This document shows positions 11,201 to 34,700 of a DNA stretch of 64,000 bases, one piece after another. The position numbers were made by a program, and so were the translations under genes. This stretch comes from Catonia carolina (lineage: Eukaryota; Arthropoda; Insecta; Hemiptera; Achilidae). How positions within the stretch are numbered: position 1 is the stretch's first letter; every line of letters begins with the position of its first letter. The DNA lies in contig JAQMRL010000002.1 of NCBI GenBank assembly GCA_035578175.1, positions 138,684,171-138,748,170 of the forward strand, in the 5' to 3' direction. The notes under the pieces are model-generated. The model saw only the letters and a program-made list of their open reading frames with translations, searched no databases and had not been told where the DNA came from.

Positions 11201-14200
11201 GAAAGTTACATATTTATTATTTACATGACATTAAAGGATCCCACACACCGGTGCGAATTATTCGCAGCTGTAGCGGCAGCGAGAATTCCGCGTCACCGCT
11301 CAGACCGGCGCGTAAATCGCAACAATAGCGGTTATTTATTTATCAGCATTCACAGTTTTTGGCCTCCGGGCCAGCCCAGTCAGTCAGCTGGTCGAGTGTC
11401 GCTATTATTTGTTAAGTAACACCGGTTAGGCAAGCGACTTTGTATGGTGACCAGCTGACAGCCATCCCTGTTTAAACTTATGCCTAATTCACATCAAAAA
11501 TACAGCGATCAAATTGGGTAGTTGTCAATAATGTATAAAGTTCCCGATAACAAATAAAAGCTACAAAAAAAATTCATAGTTTTTGCAATATGTTGTCTGA
11601 AAAAGAAGAGGTACTTGTGTTATGTGCATTGTAGCAGAAGAAGAAAATAACTGGTTACTAATAAAGTTTAATTTATCTAATTAAGTAATAAAATTTTGGA
11701 AAGTCTGTAACCTTTGTACAAGGTACATTGTGTTGTTGACAATTTAAAATACACAATGAAATGTATTGCAGCAGTATTGTATGGTATTAACAAAACAGCA
11801 CAAACAATCTAGTGTGAAACACTCACACAACTTTATCACGCCAATGCAAATAATGACCAATATAACCTAACATTAGTAATAAAAACATTAGAAATAAACG
11901 AAAACTAACCTCCATAAACATAACCTAATTTTAATCATGAGGGAAAGACGCAAAATTAAAATCAACCGCAGTTTGGCTTAAAAATACGGAAAAATCACTC
12001 TTTCACGCTAAACTAGGCTCTGTAGAGAAAAATGCTTTAAATAAAAGTTGTAGATCTTTTAATTTTCTATAATTTTTTATAGACACTTTTGTCGTAAAAT
12101 GCGTACTAAGGCTGAAATCTTAAAAAGTCAATTTATTTTACACATTTTCATGGAACAGAAAATCACTAATTACCGTTAACCTAAGCGTTATACAGAGAAA
12201 TGTTTGAAAAAAATTTAAGATTTTTTAAGCGTCTACAACTTTTATGATATACATTTTTGCGCTAAAATTCATATTAAAGCCGCAATCTTGAAAAATCAAT
12301 TTTTTTACGAAAAAAACAGCCTTCCCAAGAATTTTTGCAAACATGGCGCCTACCCTATCTTGTAGAGCATAAAAAATTTAGTAAACCAGGCGATTTTTAA
12401 AAAATCGTAGGAGCCGTTTTTAAGAAAATCGCAAAAAATTAAAAAAATACACGAATAAACTACTACTTCCGGTTGATCGATTTCGATGCAAATCTTCGTG
12501 TCGGATCCAGTAGTGGTATCTAACTTAAGTTTCAAGTTTCAAGTTCGTACGATATTCCGTTTTTGAGATATTCTGTTCACACCCACACACACGCGATTTT
12601 AAAAACGCGCGCGCACACACGCACACACAAACAAACAAATCGCTAAAAACATGTTTTTTGGGTTCAGGGGGTCTGAAAATGTATGGATCTGGTGAAAACT
12701 CGATTTTGAAAAATCGACATGAAAACAATAGGCCTACTTTCCTTCCTATACAGGGTGATTCATGAAGTTCTCCCGCCACTTCTACAGCACATTGTACTAG
12801 TAAAAATAATGAAAAAATGTTATATAAACATAGGTCCGAAAACGCTTCGTTAGCGAGTTACAGCTAGCGAAAGTTTCGGCTGGATTTCAGTTCACCAGGT
12901 GAAATGAGGTCTTCCTGGAATTGTGGTAAGGTAGATTAAGGGGCGAATTCAATCATTTCTTATGGTTTTTGATCTGATAAATTGAATAAAACAGGTCCCA
13001 GAACTGTAAGTTAAATAGTTTTTGAGAAAACCAGTGTCAAATGCAAAAAATGGAGTGAAAATCACATTTTTTCATCTTTGGGCAAGAATAACTTTGTTAT
13101 TTCACCAAGAAACAGTTAAAATTTTTCAATAAAAAATGTAGAAAATTTTATTCTGAACAAACCGGTGTAAATAAAGTACACAGAAAGCGAATAGTTTTTG
13201 AGAAAACCAGTGTCAAATGCAAAAAAATGGAGTGAAAAAAACACATTTTTTCATTTTAGTTTTTCCGGTTAATTTTACTTTGTACTCTTATGAATAAAAA
13301 CTCATTTAATCAAACATCTATTCGCTTTCTGTGTACTTAATTTACACCGGTTTGTTCAGAATAAAATTTTCTACATTTTTTATTGAAAAATTTTAACTGT
13401 TTCTTGGTGAAATAACAAAGTTATTCTTGCCCAAAGATGAAAAAATGTGATTTTCACTACATTTTTTTGCATTTGACACTGGTTTTCTCAAAAACTATTT
13501 AACTTACAGTTCTGGGACCTGTTTTATTCAATTTATCAGATCAAAAACCATAAGAAATGATTGAATTCGCCCCTTAATCTACCTTACCACAATTCCAGGA
13601 AGACCTCATTTCACCTGGTGAACTGAAATCCAGGCGAAACTTTCGCTAGCTGTAACTCGCTAACGAAGCGTTTTCGGACCTATGTTTATATAACATTTTT
13701 TCATTATTTTTACTAGTACAATGTGCTGTAGAAGTGGGGGGAGAACTTCATGAATCACCCTGTATATTCATACAGGCAAGGGAAAGTAAAAACCATCAAA
13801 TTAGACCTAAGACTGTAGAACACTCTTAGTAATTTACTTTATTTAACTAAATAATTTTTCCTTGCTCTGTATGAATATATCGGGAAGAACGTATTGATTT
13901 TATGTCGATTTTTTCGAAATCCGAGTTTTCACCGGATGTAAACTTTTTCAGACCCTCTGAACCCAAAAAAAACATGTTTTTAGTGATGGTCTGCGCGCGC
14001 GCGTATGTGTGTGAACAAAATTCTCAAGAACGAAGTATCGTACAAAGTTGGAACTTAAAACTGAAGTTAGGTAAGACTGCGGGACCCGACATGAACATTT
14101 TCATCAAAATCAGTCAATCGGAGTAGTAATTTATTCGTGAAGTTTTTCACTATTTTGCGATTTTCTCAAAAACAACTCTAAATTTATTTTTTGAATTCGC

Positions 14201-26200: not shown

Positions 26201-28730
26201 GGATATCTCAATATGTGACCGAGGTATGATATTCTCTTTTTTCTTATCGTCTCAGTTACTGGATCAATAGTTTTGTAAACTTCACTATTGGGTAAAAGTC
26301 TCCAGTGTCCTTCCACTTTGTTTCTCTTGCCTATGCAGGTTCTCACTATTTCTCTTTACTTTTTGACAACTCTGTCAGTGTTAATCTTGGATTTTATTTT
26401 AAACAGGGTCTCACTGCAATAGGTTATTTTGGGTTGGACAACTGTTTTATAGTGTTTTAATTTAGATTGAATTGAGAGGCATATTTTCTTATATGTGTTT
26501 TTCACCATCTTATAGGTGCTGTTCATCTTGGCTGATCTTTCAGTCCAATTTATTGCCTCATTATTATTTTTAGTGATTATTTCCCCTAGATAATTAAATT
26601 TCTCAACTAATCCCACTTTGTTGTCATTTATCATTATGTGTTTAGATTTGTCCTCTCCTAAATTCATCTTTTTAGTTTTTTCATACGATATTTTGAGTCC
26701 TATCTTTCCTGCTATATCTTCTAGAGATTTAACTTGGGAAATGGTTCCCTCTGCATTTGTTTCTAGTAGCGCTAAATCGTCTGCAAATACCAGACAACTA
26801 AATTTCAATCCTTTGTTCTTTCTTCCTAATACCACTGTGGGAGGATTGATTCTCTGCCACTCCCTCATTATATACTCTAGTGCACAGTTAAACAGTAATG
26901 GAGACAGTCCATCTCCCTGTCTTAATCCTGTTGTGATGTTAAATTCTTTGGATAGTTCTCCTCTAAATCGTATTTTGGATTTGGTATCTTTTAGTGTCAA
27001 CTGGATTAGTTTGATCAATTTCGGGTTTAATCCCGAATTTCTTAATATTTTTAGCATGAAATTTCTGTGTATACAATCGTAAGCCTTTTTAAAATCTATG
27101 AATGAAATCACTATACTCTTCGATTGTTTCATTTTCTTGTGGTAGTCTATTAGTAGTTTTAAAGTTAAAACTTGATCAGCTCCACATCTCCAAGGTCTGA
27201 ACCCTGCTTGATAATCTCCCAATTGTTGGTGTAATTGGTCTTTAATTCGATTGTATTGTAAGGATAATATCCTTGAGAATATCTTGTACGTACAATCTAA
27301 CAAGGAAATTCCTCTATAATTATCCGGGTTGGTCTTATCTCCTTTCTTGAACAGAGGGCAAATAATTACTGATGTCCAATGTTCTGGCAATATTTCTGAG
27401 TTGCAGATTTCACATAAGTTCCGATGTAGTTGGACTTGTGTTTCTTTGGACGCATATTTCCATAGTTCGGTTGTGATTGGATCTTCTCCGCAACTCTTAT
27501 TGTTCTTCATCTCTGTGATTACATTTTGCACTTCCATTAGTGTTAGTTCTTGGATGTTTCGCTGTTCCGTCAAAATTGGGGTATTTTCATCAATTTCAAA
27601 AAAGTTCTGTGGGATCTTCGCAGTTCAACAGTTTATCAAATGAATCTGCTAAGATTTCTGCGTTTCCTTGGTTGTTATGGGCAGTTTTCCCTTGTCTATT
27701 TTTCAGTATTAGGGTTGGTGGGGCATATTTAGCTGTTTGTTGTTTGAATCCTCTACAATACAATCTGGTGTTATTTTTCTGATTGTTAGCATCCATTTCC
27801 TCTAAGGATGTTTTCAGATATAGTCTTTTTTCACTACGAATTATACCATGGGATAATTTACTTTGTTTTCTATAGTCCTCCAGACTATAAATAATACTTA
27901 TTTATTTTAATAAAAAATGTATTCATATTGAAACAAAAAAATCTGGTGTGAAACACTCACACAACTTTCTCTTGCCAATGCTAATAATTAACAAAAATCC
28001 TAACATTAGTAATAAAACATTAGAAATAAACAAAAAACTAATCTCTAAAAATATGACCTTATTTTAATAATGACTGGAAGACGCAAAATGAAAATCAACC
28101 TCAGTTTGGCTTAAAAATACAGAAAATCACTCTTTCACGCTAAACTACACTCTGTAGAGAAAAATGCTCAAAATAAAAGTTGTAGATCTTTTAATTTGCT
28201 AAAAATTTAATTATGTACTTTTTTGTCGTAAAATGACAAGTCAGAGGAGAGGACTAAGGCCTAAATCTTAGAAAAATCAATTTTTCACACGTTTTCGTGA
28301 GAAAAAACAGAAAATTGCTAATTACCGCTAAACTAAGCGTTATACAAAAAAATGTTTGAAACAAAAGTTGTAGAATTTTAAATTCTTTACATTTTTATTA
28401 AATACATTTTTGCGCTATAATACATATTAAAGCCGTAATCTTAAAAAAAACACTTTTTTTACGTAAACACACCCTCACCAAGAATTTCAGCAAACATGGC
28501 GCCTACCCTATCTTGTAGAGAATAAAAAATTGAGTAAATAAGGCGATTTTAAAAAAAATCGTAGGACCAGTTTTTGAGAAAATCTCAAAAAAACGAAAAA
28601 TTACACGAATAAACTACTACTTCCGGTTGACCGATTTTGATGAAAATGTTCGTGTAGGGTCCGGTAGTGGTATGTAACTTAAGTTTCAAGTTCCAAGTTC
28701 GTACGATGTTCCGTTCTTGAGATATTTTGT

Positions 28731-28762
<32 letters not shown>

Positions 28763-31700
28763 ACACACACACGCGCGCGCGCGCACACACACACACACAC
28801 CAATCGCTAAAAACATGTTTTTTGGGTTCAGGGGGTCTGAAAACGTATAGATCCGGTGAAAACTCGATTTTGAAAAATCGACATGAAAACAATACTTTCC
28901 TTTCTATATATTCATATAGGCAAGAGAAAGTAAAAATTAGAGGCCGCAAAAATATATTGATCTACGTTGATTGTAAAGATTAAAACAAACGTCGACATTT
29001 AACGAAACATGATCTTACGGGTGCGTTCTACCTCTGCCGCGCCGCTCAATGTAAAGGTTTAGATGATTACAACCAACTCTGTTGTTATGCAAGTCATAAT
29101 GAAAGTTTGACATGCCTTTTAAAGCTTAAAATATGCTCTTTTTACCACTAATATTTTTTATATGTGCACTACGTTTAAACTTTAAAAAATTAAAGTAAAT
29201 CTCTTAAAGTTGTAAAGTTTTCTAAAATTATTTGTAAATTACGAACAGCAATACTGACAAACACTTAGTAATTAAAACTTCAAATACAAACAAAAAAAAA
29301 AGATTCATCAAAAATTACTTAGTCAGCTGGAACATAGTCAACAATAAAAAATGGCTTGTTGAGTTTTTTACCTTATTTAAATTTTGTATTGTACAAGCAT
29401 TAAAAAGAAAGGGTTAATAAAGATTTGCACAGATTTGTTAAAATTAATCTCAAATTAAGTCAAATTGATCAGTGAATTAACTCTTAGTGACGGTAAGGGA
29501 AGATAATCTAACATCCAAGACAGGTCATTTTCGCTCCCGAGTTAAACGGGCTGTAACTTCAAAACGGTAAGAGATATTTAAAAACGGTTTTACCAGTGGA
29601 TTTTTCGCAAAATTCTACATGGAAATGATGTGCCACATGAACACCTTCGTATTTAAAAAAAAAGTAGCAATTACGATGGCTGATCCAAGATAACGGAAAT
29701 AATGTACGAACATTATTTTTAATAGTTTTTATTCACATACATAAGATTATATTGTGTTTTGAAGAATAACATCACTAGTTCGCAAAATATTTCACCGTGC
29801 TCGGACTTTTGAGACACCTCAAAAGACACCTCAAAACCACACATTGTGACCTTCTCACAAAACGTATAAGTATAGGCATTTCATCTGGCGCGTGGAGGCT
29901 TCGAATGAATCAGCTTGCATATACTACATCCATCCGTCCCTCACCTATTGTTATAGACTGTTCATAAAACTAATGTATACATTTTTCTACATTTTATAGT
30001 GACATTCTTTTTTTGTAAATACAGTACAAACCGAATGGGTAGTGATGTAATGTATTTATAACTAATCATAATTTATTATTGTATTATACAGTTATAGGCT
30101 TATAAGTAAGCATAGTTTATTTACAAATTAAACTGGTTTTGACAGCAGGTGACTCATCAACTACATACGCCTAACTAACAAATGAACCGCTATATTGTCA
30201 TTCAGTGTTTAATCAATTGTCGTTCAGTACAATCATTACGGTTATACAGCGTCGAGGGGTTTTTTATGTGTGCAAATCAAATAGTGTGTTAGTGTGAATA
30301 GTGTGTGTGTTAGATTATAGTTCTACCTATTTTGATTTGTTAATTTTTATTAGCGTTATGGTTAAAGTATAAATTTACCTATTGTAGTGTTTATTATTTT
30401 GTCGTTTACTAGTTCACATTAAGCTTAAAATGTCTAAAATCGGAGGGAGTAAAGTTCTGCATAGCCAATCTCGGTAGAAAATTGCTAATGTGGTTACGTT
30501 TATGACCGAGGAAGCAAAGCATGGCGTTTTTACTATAGATGTTAAGAAAATTATCGAACGCGTTAGTGGCGCAACTGGTGTGTCAAAACGTTCAATTACG
30601 CGAATAAAACAAGAATCGAAAGTTAAATTAGAAGGATCGTCACTGTCTTTTACGACACCCAAAAAACATTCGGTACGGGCCAAACCTGTTTCAGATTTGG
30701 ATGATTTTGACAGGAGTGTTATCCGTCAAAAAATAAATAATTTTTACACAGACGAAGTTGGAAAATGCTTACTAACAATAAATAAATTATTAATAATCAA
30801 TTAATAATTTATTAATAATAATCAATACCAAGTACGGAGAAATTAAAATGGTAAAAAAGTTCAAATATTTGGGTGAAGTTATAACACATAATGCCATTAA
30901 TAAAATTCCACTTAAGGAGAGAGCGGAGAAGCTGGAAAGAGCTTTCAACACAGTTAGACACATATACAATAAAAGGAACCCATCCATCACCGCAAAGATT
31001 AGACATTATACAACGGTAATCAGACCTTTGGTTCTTTATGGTTCCGAAACCTTGGCTATGAACAAGGAAAACAAAAACTTGGCCCGAATTGAGAAAAGAA
31101 TCCTAAGAATGATATGCGGACCACTCAAAACAGAAGACGGGTTCAGAAGGAGACCAACATCAGAGATATACAGAGTCTTGGAACCCATAGACTCAGCTAT
31201 AATCAGGCGTAAACTGAAATTCCATGCACACATTATGAGAATGAATAACCAAAGATGGGTGAAACGGATTTACAATAAAACTCTTAACATGAAGAATAGT
31301 ACTCATATATTCAGTAAAACAGTTAAACAATTCCTGGAGAGATATAAAATTACAGAAGAACTTTGCCAAAACAGAGAAAAGTTTAGACAACACATTGGAA
31401 AAGTGGAAGTCTTTGAATGCGAAAAACCTAAAAGTAAACCGGGGACCAAATGGACCCAAGAAAGAAAAGAACAATTTGCTAGCCAAATGAAAGCCTACTG
31501 GCAGCAACGGAAAATGAAGAATATAAAAATAAACCTTCCTAATTAGTATTTGCGTAGTCCTTAGAAGGCTAGACCGCAAAAAAAAGAAAAAAAAAGACTA
31601 TCAATAATCAATTAAAAAATTAAAGCAGCGCTGTTTCAAAACTGTTACCGAAATTTTGTTAAAGTATAATATTCTTAGAAATAGCTTTATAAATTATAAT

Positions 31701-34700
31701 TGCGTCTATATGAATATTATTGTATAAATGTACGCTTTATAGAAAACTCTGACATGCATTTTGTTTTGAAGTGGGCATTTCTGATACACCTTATAGTATT
31801 ATAGGCTGAACTCTCTGCAAGCCTGATGAGACGCCTATAGCGGACGGGTGAAAGGCAAAGTGGTCTAAGTCATTTTTTGTTAAAATTGGGATAAGTCAAC
31901 GTATGAATATTCTCCATAGCTACATTCACCGTCTAGTAATGTGAACTAAGTCATAGTTCGACTGTGTGGCCGCTAGATAGCAGAAGTTTACTGTACCTGA
32001 TTGTGTTCGGCTGTTTATTTAGAAGGCAGAGTGATCTATGTCAGACTTACACCAGTTTGCCTTAAACTGTTTTTGTTCCATAGCGTGGTAGTTAGTCTTT
32101 AAAGCTGTTCTACAGAAATGGAAAATTCGGACAGTAATGATTCTGAAATGGTTAATGAGCTGAGTGTGTTGGAATATTCAGGAACGGATTATGGCCTTCC
32201 GATGATTGCTTCAGTTCAGGTAAGTAAATAAATAATATTTATTAATATTTACATATTTTTATTCATAAACTTTTTGGTTAGGTTAAGTGAAAAAGAAGCT
32301 ATTTTTTGTTTTCCGAAGAAGATTCAGTAACAGATTAAAGGGAGTTGGAAAAAATATAATATTCTTTTAGGTTTAAGTAAATTTTAGGTTTTGTTGGTTT
32401 AATTTGAGGTTAGGTACTTTTTTAAATTTTGTGCTTTTGTAGTTTGCCACAGTTACTCCATTCTTTCGTTCTAAAGGTTTGTAGAAACTGTAATACAGCA
32501 AGGAATTAAAAAACCTGAAAAATTAACTAGTAAAAATGTGGAATGTCACTTAGTACAAATACAAGCAGTGTTAGAAAAATCAAACCAAAACCAAGTTTAG
32601 TTTCAAAAATTATAATAGTTTTGAGTAGTATGAACAATAATTTAAAAAGAAACTGTCGCTAGGAGTTATTTTACTTTCAATATGCACTCACTGACTTTAA
32701 ATAATAAATCTTTGTAATGCCTGTATCCAAAATCCTTTTGCCCAACTGCTGTATTTTTTATCTTTTGTGTACAACCTTTCGGTGGATCCACCTTCATCAG
32801 ATTATAGTATTAAAAACTGAAACTTTTTATTTAAAATTATTACAGAAGATGTTTCCTCTGCAGTCACTAGAAACTGAAGAGAAGACATCTTATGTAATTT
32901 TAAATGAAAAGTTTCAGCTATTTTTAATACTACTATCTGGTGAAGGTGAATCCACTAAACGATTGCAAGTAGAAAATTGATAGATACAGCAGCCAGGAAA
33001 AACGTAGTGAAAAATAATTAATAAAAATAATAATATAATGTTCCAGTACATAATGGTAATGTTTTTTTTCTCAGATGACTCTCGGCATTCTCAACACCAA
33101 GAAGCATCTGACGTAGAAATAAATATGCCTGCAAATGAACCACAGAAAAAAACAAGGAAACGCCAAAAAAATGAAAGCAAGCAACAAGCTCGAAAAAGGA
33201 AAAGGAATTCTGGTATGGCCTACGAAACCAAGAAAGGTAAACTTGTTTTGTCAAAAATGTTTGTAAATGATCCTTGTTTGTGCAGAAGAAACTGCAATAA
33301 TACGATTGACGAGGAAAGCAGAAAACATGCTTTTACTGTTTTCAGGAAACAAGGGAATTTTAGCTTACAGAATACATACTTGTGTGGGCTGGTACAGCCC
33401 ACACAAGTATGCAAAAACGACTTTATGCTCCACGTCCAGTAACAAAAGAGAAAAAGAGAGATATGTTGGACTTGCTAAACTTTATTCCACCAATTCATTA
33501 TACTTTCTACCATTCTTTAATTACATCAGACACCTCTGAGGATATTGGTCCTTTGGAGGATGTACTACAGATTCCTGAAGATTATTGTAATGATGATTAG
33601 TGTTTTTCCATCTATAAATCGTTTATTAGTTTTATCTTTATTTTTTATAACATTAAAATATTTGGTACTACATAAATTTCATTCCATTTTAAAAGTGTAT
33701 CTTCTTAGTGTTTAAATAAGTGTATTTTTAAGTATTCAAAGTGTGTATTTCTTGTAATAAAACTGTCTCTTCAGAGTAATAAGTTGTATTTACTTTTTAC
33801 CACTTTTCCAGATAGCATATAATTATACATGACAAATTTCAGTCAAAGTGGTCTAAGTCATTGTTTAAAGCAAAGTGGTTTAAGTCAGACTTAGACCACT
33901 TTCCTGCAATTCATTATAATATAACTGGTTTTGAAAACCTAAATATTCTTGTAAGGAAAAGTGGTCTAAGTCTCTTTTTTGCTCTCTAAATAAACAGAAT
34001 CATGATAATAAGCTTAACTAACATAAATAAAAAACAAAATAATATCTTAGTAAAGCAATACAGTAACGAAAAGTCACTTGTTATAAAAATTAAATGTTCT
34101 GTAGCAAAATTTACAAAATATCAGTTATCTCGAAAGTTAGTTTTCTGACTTAGACCACTTTCACTTTCACCCGTCCATTACAGGCTGAACTCTCTGCAAG
34201 CCAGATGAGACGCCTATAGCTATACCTGATACACAGTATCCAATTGGCGACACAATTCTCTTCTGTATTACTGATCAAGACTAACTAACTTCAAGATGTC
34301 CTAGCCTTTTAAATACCTAACTCGACGGGGTTCTAGTTTAACAGAAATTTTTCTGTACCTAAAAAATATGCAAAGTTTTTTGTCGGTTCTGAGTGAATAT
34401 TATTAAAAAGTAAAAACATTAATTTAGAATTAAGTACTTATTATAACGTCATAACAAAAGAGCTAATTATCTAAATAGGTACCCCGAGTCTTTTCAGGAA
34501 GCCGTCCTAACCTAATACCTAACCATTTGTATACTATTTCTCTAAACATTTCTCGGAAACAACCCGAATACTGTATCACTATTATTTACATTTCAGAAAC
34601 TTGGTCCCGCTATAGAATTCTGGAACCAACACTCTCCTTTTAGATTGTATCACAGTATAAATTATTTTTGTTTATGTGGTACAATTACTCTGAAACGGCT

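Follow-up and report, generated by a model that had tools for sequence, protein, structure and literature searches.

A 44-bp target-site duplication flanks a DNA transposon in Catonia carolina

In a 64,000-nt stretch of the Catonia carolina genome (contig JAQMRL010000002.1; called the window here), we found a DNA transposon flanked by a target-site duplication of 44 bp, which is genuine and, in this one insertion, unusually long for a eukaryotic cut-and-paste element. The duplication is demonstrated by comparison with a host repeat carrying the 44-mer in single copy, by the exact abutment of both copies on the element and by one private change in each copy. We consider it reasonably probable that a DUF7869-type DDE element was inserted in one event with a wide stagger, whose 44 bp were then filled in.

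The element and its flanking repeats

A sequence-only reading of the window had described a 2,335-bp element with 31-bp terminal inverted repeats and an adjoining 44-bp direct repeat identical at 42 of 44 positions, and re-measurement confirmed all of this (Table 1), with zero bases between each inverted end and its direct repeat. Searched for with up to three mismatches, a 20-nt core of the 44-mer turns up at two positions of the window only (none expected from 100 shuffles), and a chance origin of the pair is excluded. A scan of the window covered 389 inverted-repeat pairs, of which this one alone has a long direct repeat at its flanks, the next-longest flanking direct repeat being 12 bp.

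Table 1. Coordinates of features at the insertion locus (window positions)
Feature	Position	Strand	Remark
Host repeat, left part (29864-30809 and 31593-31841), with a 783-bp insert (30810-31592)	29864..31841	+	
Left 44-bp direct repeat, 3′ end of host repeat	31798..31841	+	T at its position 27
Inserted DNA transposon, 2,335 bp, non-autonomous	31842..34176	+	
5′ terminal inverted repeat, 31 bp	31842..31872	+	
Likely first coding exon, 34 codons, then splice-donor-like GTAAGT	32118..32219	+	read from sequence
Transposase gene remnant, P0001 residues 27-147	33065..33397	+	56% identical; tblastn
17-bp perfect hairpin where ~464 codons are gone	33375..33411	.	
Transposase gene remnant, P0001 residues 612-669	33412..33582	+	66% identical; tblastn
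Four-copy cluster of terminal-repeat 15-mer AAAGTGGTCTAAGTC	33845..33972	both orientations	at most 1 mismatch
3′ terminal inverted repeat, 31 bp	34146..34176	-	29/31 identical to the 5′ one
Right 44-bp direct repeat	34177..34220	+	C at its position 5
Last bases of host repeat, TATA	34221..34224	+	TATA after the 44-mer in 38/52 copies

The 15-mer from the inverted ends has seven copies in the element at up to two mismatches, both ends counted. Repeated motifs near transposon ends are often transposase-binding sites, and by analogy these copies are putative sites of this kind. The phase of the likely first exon makes no simple join to 33075, and within the presumed intron lie nested inverted repeats (32772-32965; 45 nt at 82% and 35 nt at 83%), perhaps a further small insertion. 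The miRNA-like Rfam matches in the element are all below gathering and were rejected. We also dropped the idea that CTGATGAG of the left 44-mer marks a hammerhead ribozyme: there is no Rfam match at gathering, there is no ribozyme among 10 Rfam matches at E 5, and all 52 host copies described below have A, giving CAGATGAG. Elsewhere in the window (12747-13766) there is a large near-perfect inverted repeat with 304-nt arms, 99% complementary and 412 nt apart.

A host repeat carries the 44-mer once

Rather than belonging to the element, the 44-mer forms the 3′ terminus of an abundant host repeat. Its core, with up to two mismatches allowed, is found at 263 places (130 + 133; control 0) in the 1.47-Gb, 142-contig assembly, 261 of them outside the window; 66 of the 263 are exact, including two inside the window. 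We read 52 of the 64 exact-core places outside the window, and the 44-mer was seen as the 3′ end of the repeat in 30 of these loci; the repeat is 886 to 1,330 bp long and starts near window position 29864 (17 of the 30 copies measured end to end). It is hardly credible that the 44-mer belongs to the element, as long terminal direct repeats or recombinase att-like sites: it does abut both ends and has an inverted-repeat core, but it is the end of another repeat in the 52 loci read, its core is present at the 261 outside places, and it is absent beside every other copy of the element found. The sequence-only reading had allowed that the same 44-mer might flank all copies, which is not the case; nor do the copies share it as the att direct repeats of a site-specific recombinase element, a candidate we rejected.

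Exactly one 44-mer is present in each of the 52 loci (up to nine substitutions allowed); these are the empty sites with a single 44-mer that the earlier reading proposed to look for, and they bear out the 44 bp as a target-site duplication. Position 27 of the 44-mer is A in 52 out of 52 host copies and T in the left window copy, and position 5 is T in 49, C in two and A in one, and C in the right window copy; both positions are outside the core used to pick the loci. With one private change each, the two window copies therefore descend from one ancestral 44-mer. A single copy gave rise to both by a duplication of 44 bp, and insertion is the simplest occasion for it, because the abutment is exact and nothing is lost. 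A tandem pair of 44-mers already present in the host copy, its junction hit exactly by an element that duplicated nothing, is very improbable: insertion free of duplication is conceivable, as another copy of the element (L088, see below) has no duplication at its ends, but two 44-mers are found in none of the 52 host copies, no tandem array is seen at the rejoined empty site (TRF and alignments, 300 bp each side), and an exact hit on the junction is required. The two flanks have one 9-mer, CTGATACAC, in common, at a distance of 66 bp once the site is rejoined; with 60-bp flanks such sharing slightly exceeds the 95% level of shuffles, whereas with longer flanks it falls short of that level.

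The ends of the host repeat, TATAAGTATAGGCATTTCATCTGGC and, reversed, TATAGCTATAGGCGTCTCATCTGGC, are alike at 21 of 25 positions (compared by eye), so the host repeat is probably itself a non-autonomous inverted-repeat element. Past its last bases the flanks mostly differ among the 30 copies, with a right flank common to L050, L051 and L052. The 783-bp insert of the window copy has an A-rich tail and holds the final part of a frame resembling reverse transcriptase, with its stop at ~31546. Most aligned copies of the host repeat join 30809 to ~31593 directly, without this insert, and the idea that the 44-mer is the 3′ UTR of the adjacent reverse-transcriptase fragment was rejected for this reason. 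Other DNA splits two of the copies: in L031 the break falls at ~31665, and in L047 at ~31800, inside the 44-mer and near its left boundary. The insert in L047 (~582-1497) is a different one, matching a repeat at window 27905-28938. A stretch similar to GGACGGGTG, the first nine bases of the inverted end of the element, is found in the host repeat (window ~29920-29945, reverse strand, one base different) and is exact in host copies L044 and L048; it may be there by chance.

The encoded protein and its family

The remnants in the window match the beetle protein P0001 (Diabrotica LOC114345931, 673 a.a.) at E 3.3e-56 (padded query), and the window copy is without ~464 codons, the whole catalytic core included. 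14 of 25 aligned relatives match PF25273 (DUF7869) at E 0.1 or better (the best at 1.6e-6); P0001 and the window pieces have no match to this profile at E 1. Proteins of this type are encoded in insect genomes such as those of Diabrotica, Pyrocoelia and Homalodisca. Judged by sequence similarity, the element is an internally deleted, non-autonomous relative of a DUF7869-type protein gene. The family of P0001 is very probably one of DDE transposases, because the alignment of relatives contains an invariant D-D-E set and the predicted structure has an integrase/Mos1-like core, which is RNase-H-like.

No Pfam transposase profile matches the 25 family members at E 0.1, a result that still allows distant kinship, and a PDB sequence search with P0001 gave no match at E 1. 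Foldseek returned a single match at E ≤0.001, to an IstA complex (E 6.6e-4, rmsd 18.4, TM-score 0.16), and transposase families missing among its matches are not excluded by their absence. The earlier description of the internal protein as not a named transposase holds for Pfam, but it appears to be what is left of a DUF7869-type protein whose core is predicted to be DDE. Protein relatives were found neither in viral_contigs (0 out of 4 stretches) nor in genome_contigs (0 out of 37); DNA-pattern matches in these sets (0; 20, 1 and 1), one match each in the match surroundings that were read, look like chance and were discarded. The name DUF7869 was not found in the literature searched.

Other copies of the element

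A search with the inverted end (up to three mismatches) gave seven matches in the genome, two of them the window's own, and a search with its final 197 bp found 10, the window among them, both counts being lower bounds. We count ~8 independent events: the window, L079, L088/L089/L090 with L080, L075, L078, L081, L092 and L095 (the same loci also appear under second labels: L079=L094, L080=L091, L078=L087 and L081=L093). L088/L089/L090 with L080 share flanks (98% over 3.2 kb for L088-L089, 100% over 3,198 bp for L088-L090 and 97% over 1.7 kb for L088-L091) and are therefore one event copied with its surroundings; what was multiplied with its flanks in L088, L089 and L090 is a 295-bp derivative of the element.

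Two recognised ends are found in three events only (the window, L079 and L088/L089/L090). L079 is 870 bp long and matches the window element at 71-76% identity; with shifts of up to six bases allowed, no duplication of 4-11 bp is seen at its ends. It carries a diverged ~80-bp repeat with a local score of 34.5, as compared with at most 32 in 260 same-locus control pairs, which is reached by 20 out of 5,000 shuffles; its length-scanning score is reached by three out of 57 controls, and we take the signal as a hint of an old repeat. The left flank of L079 shares 6 bp (TAACAC) with sequence inside the 3′ end of that copy, a match we dropped because it is not outside the element. L088/L089/L090 have no repeat abutting their ends, and L088 has no 4-11-bp duplication there with shifts of up to five bases allowed; diverged copies of the L088 right flank 450-950 bp upstream of its 5′ end (a tandem-like region) do not abut and were not counted as a duplication.

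The remaining copies have one end. No second end is found within ~5.4 kb of L075, L078, L080 and L081, and no long repeat where their homology stops; candidate short duplications are seen at L078 (4-5 bp, ACAT or ACATG) and L080 (7/8 matching). For L092 and L095, ~1.4-1.5 kb upstream was covered, and the right flank alone was compared with this region. Pieces of another DUF7869-like reading frame flank L078: at ~1380-2190 of this locus, a 336-bp piece of the element is inside that distant frame. The solo ends of L075, L078 and L081 stop at or near internal copies of the 15-mer (element ~101, 2001 and 2110), as if these motifs had served as substitute ends.

No rule for the family follows from these copies, whether of long or of short duplications, and young two-ended ones, on which the generality of the long duplication could be judged, were missing among those found in this genome. 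The survey of other copies proposed in the earlier reading gave one weak long repeat of a copy's own (at L079) and none abutting L088/L089/L090, and the short duplications it had named as evidence against its claim are absent at L079 and L088 and appear as candidates at L078 and L080. Its broader suggestion, an insertion mechanism differing from those of the described superfamilies, was not borne out for the family, with two other two-ended events showing no clear long or short duplication. It is unlikely that the family regularly makes long, variable target duplications as IS1549/IS1634 do, with ends joined independently and a length that differs per copy. The 44 bp in the window, the weak old repeat at L079 and the missing short duplication at the exact ends of all three two-ended events point that way, and bacteria offer a precedent of 8-514 bp (in the excerpt available of PMC2266710); against this, nothing abuts the ends of L088/L089/L090, the length-scanning score of L079 is non-significant, and L078 and L080 have their short candidates. 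The corresponding general proposal, that a eukaryotic DUF7869-type DDE family joins its ends independently to inverted half-sites tens of bp apart and so would produce long, variable duplications as a counterpart of IS1549/IS1634, is decidedly doubtful.

Target symmetry and a model of the insertion

The two ends of known DDE elements attack the target on opposite strands, with a short stagger between them. In the wide-stagger insertion that we favour, an internally deleted DUF7869-type DDE element would have entered the 3′ end of a ~1.2-kb host repeat, both its ends being joined to opposite strands 44 nt apart, presumably by a transposase supplied in trans, and gap filling would then have duplicated the 44 bp. 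We infer from the wide spacing that the joins would have been made without the usual fixed stagger; inverted TATAGGC half-sites would give each end a half-site of its own to choose, and in an alternative geometry the joins would be made at the foot of an extruded hairpin.

In the target a half-site begins two bases inward of either join, TATAGGC at one and its reverse complement at the other. A symmetric run of seven in the outer 12 bases is found in 69 out of 61,357 other 44-mers of the window, and at least seven of nine outer pairs in 223 out of 61,357, by a test of half-site symmetry chosen after seeing the site; the right copy of the 44-mer has six of nine outer pairs and a run of four. 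Folding of the 44-mer as RNA is unexceptional (18 of 200 shuffles fold as well), and as DNA 60 of 2,000 window 44-mers fold as well. The symmetry is compatible with separate joins of the two ends at similar half-sites, or with joins at an extruded hairpin.

The main alternative, which we consider less likely, is a repair accident: the excised element would have been ligated into a break with 44-nt overhangs, which were then filled, and the spacing would not have been chosen by the transposase. This would suit a single case that is not clearly repeated at other copies and would need no half-site symmetry, but the two ends are precise, with nothing lost and no filler at either join, and the duplication is symmetric about an inverted repeat.

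Comparison with known systems

Long target duplications occur in R2-like non-LTR retrotransposons, which are not known to have inverted ends and use a different enzyme. Among insect proteins, those of PF25273 (DUF7869) appear related to the window remnants via P0001, with the catalytic core gone from the window copy; the case draws attention to an insect protein family with an integrase-like predicted structure and no curated function.

The length of the target duplication is treated as a diagnostic superfamily character, reflecting the transposition mechanism, in the part of PMC3706591 available to us, which gives 4-10 bp for hAT, Kolobok, P and MuDR and 6-7 bp for Dada; for MULEs the available part of PMC6446971 gives 8-11 bp. 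The window element resembles hAT, P, Kolobok, MuDR/MULE and Dada in its inverted ends, its deletion derivatives and a DDE protein with a predicted RNase-H-like core, but differs from them in the duplication, theirs being 4-11 bp in these excerpts and its own 44 bp; no 4-11-bp duplication was found at the ends of L079 and L088 either. We noticed no eukaryotic DNA transposon with a comparably long duplication in the literature searched, which does not prove its absence from print. The 44-bp duplication, with its empty site documented by 52 copies, suggests that the usual geometry was exceeded at least once.

Long direct repeats at insertion, as at the window element, are described for IS1549/IS1634 (IS1634 family), for which no mechanistic model had been proposed as of 2008, according to the excerpt of PMC2266710. 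This likeness is in the duplication: IS1549/IS1634 are bacterial, with a length reported there to depend on the copy, whereas the two-ended events of the window family comprise one clear duplication (44 bp), one weak (~80 bp) and one absent.
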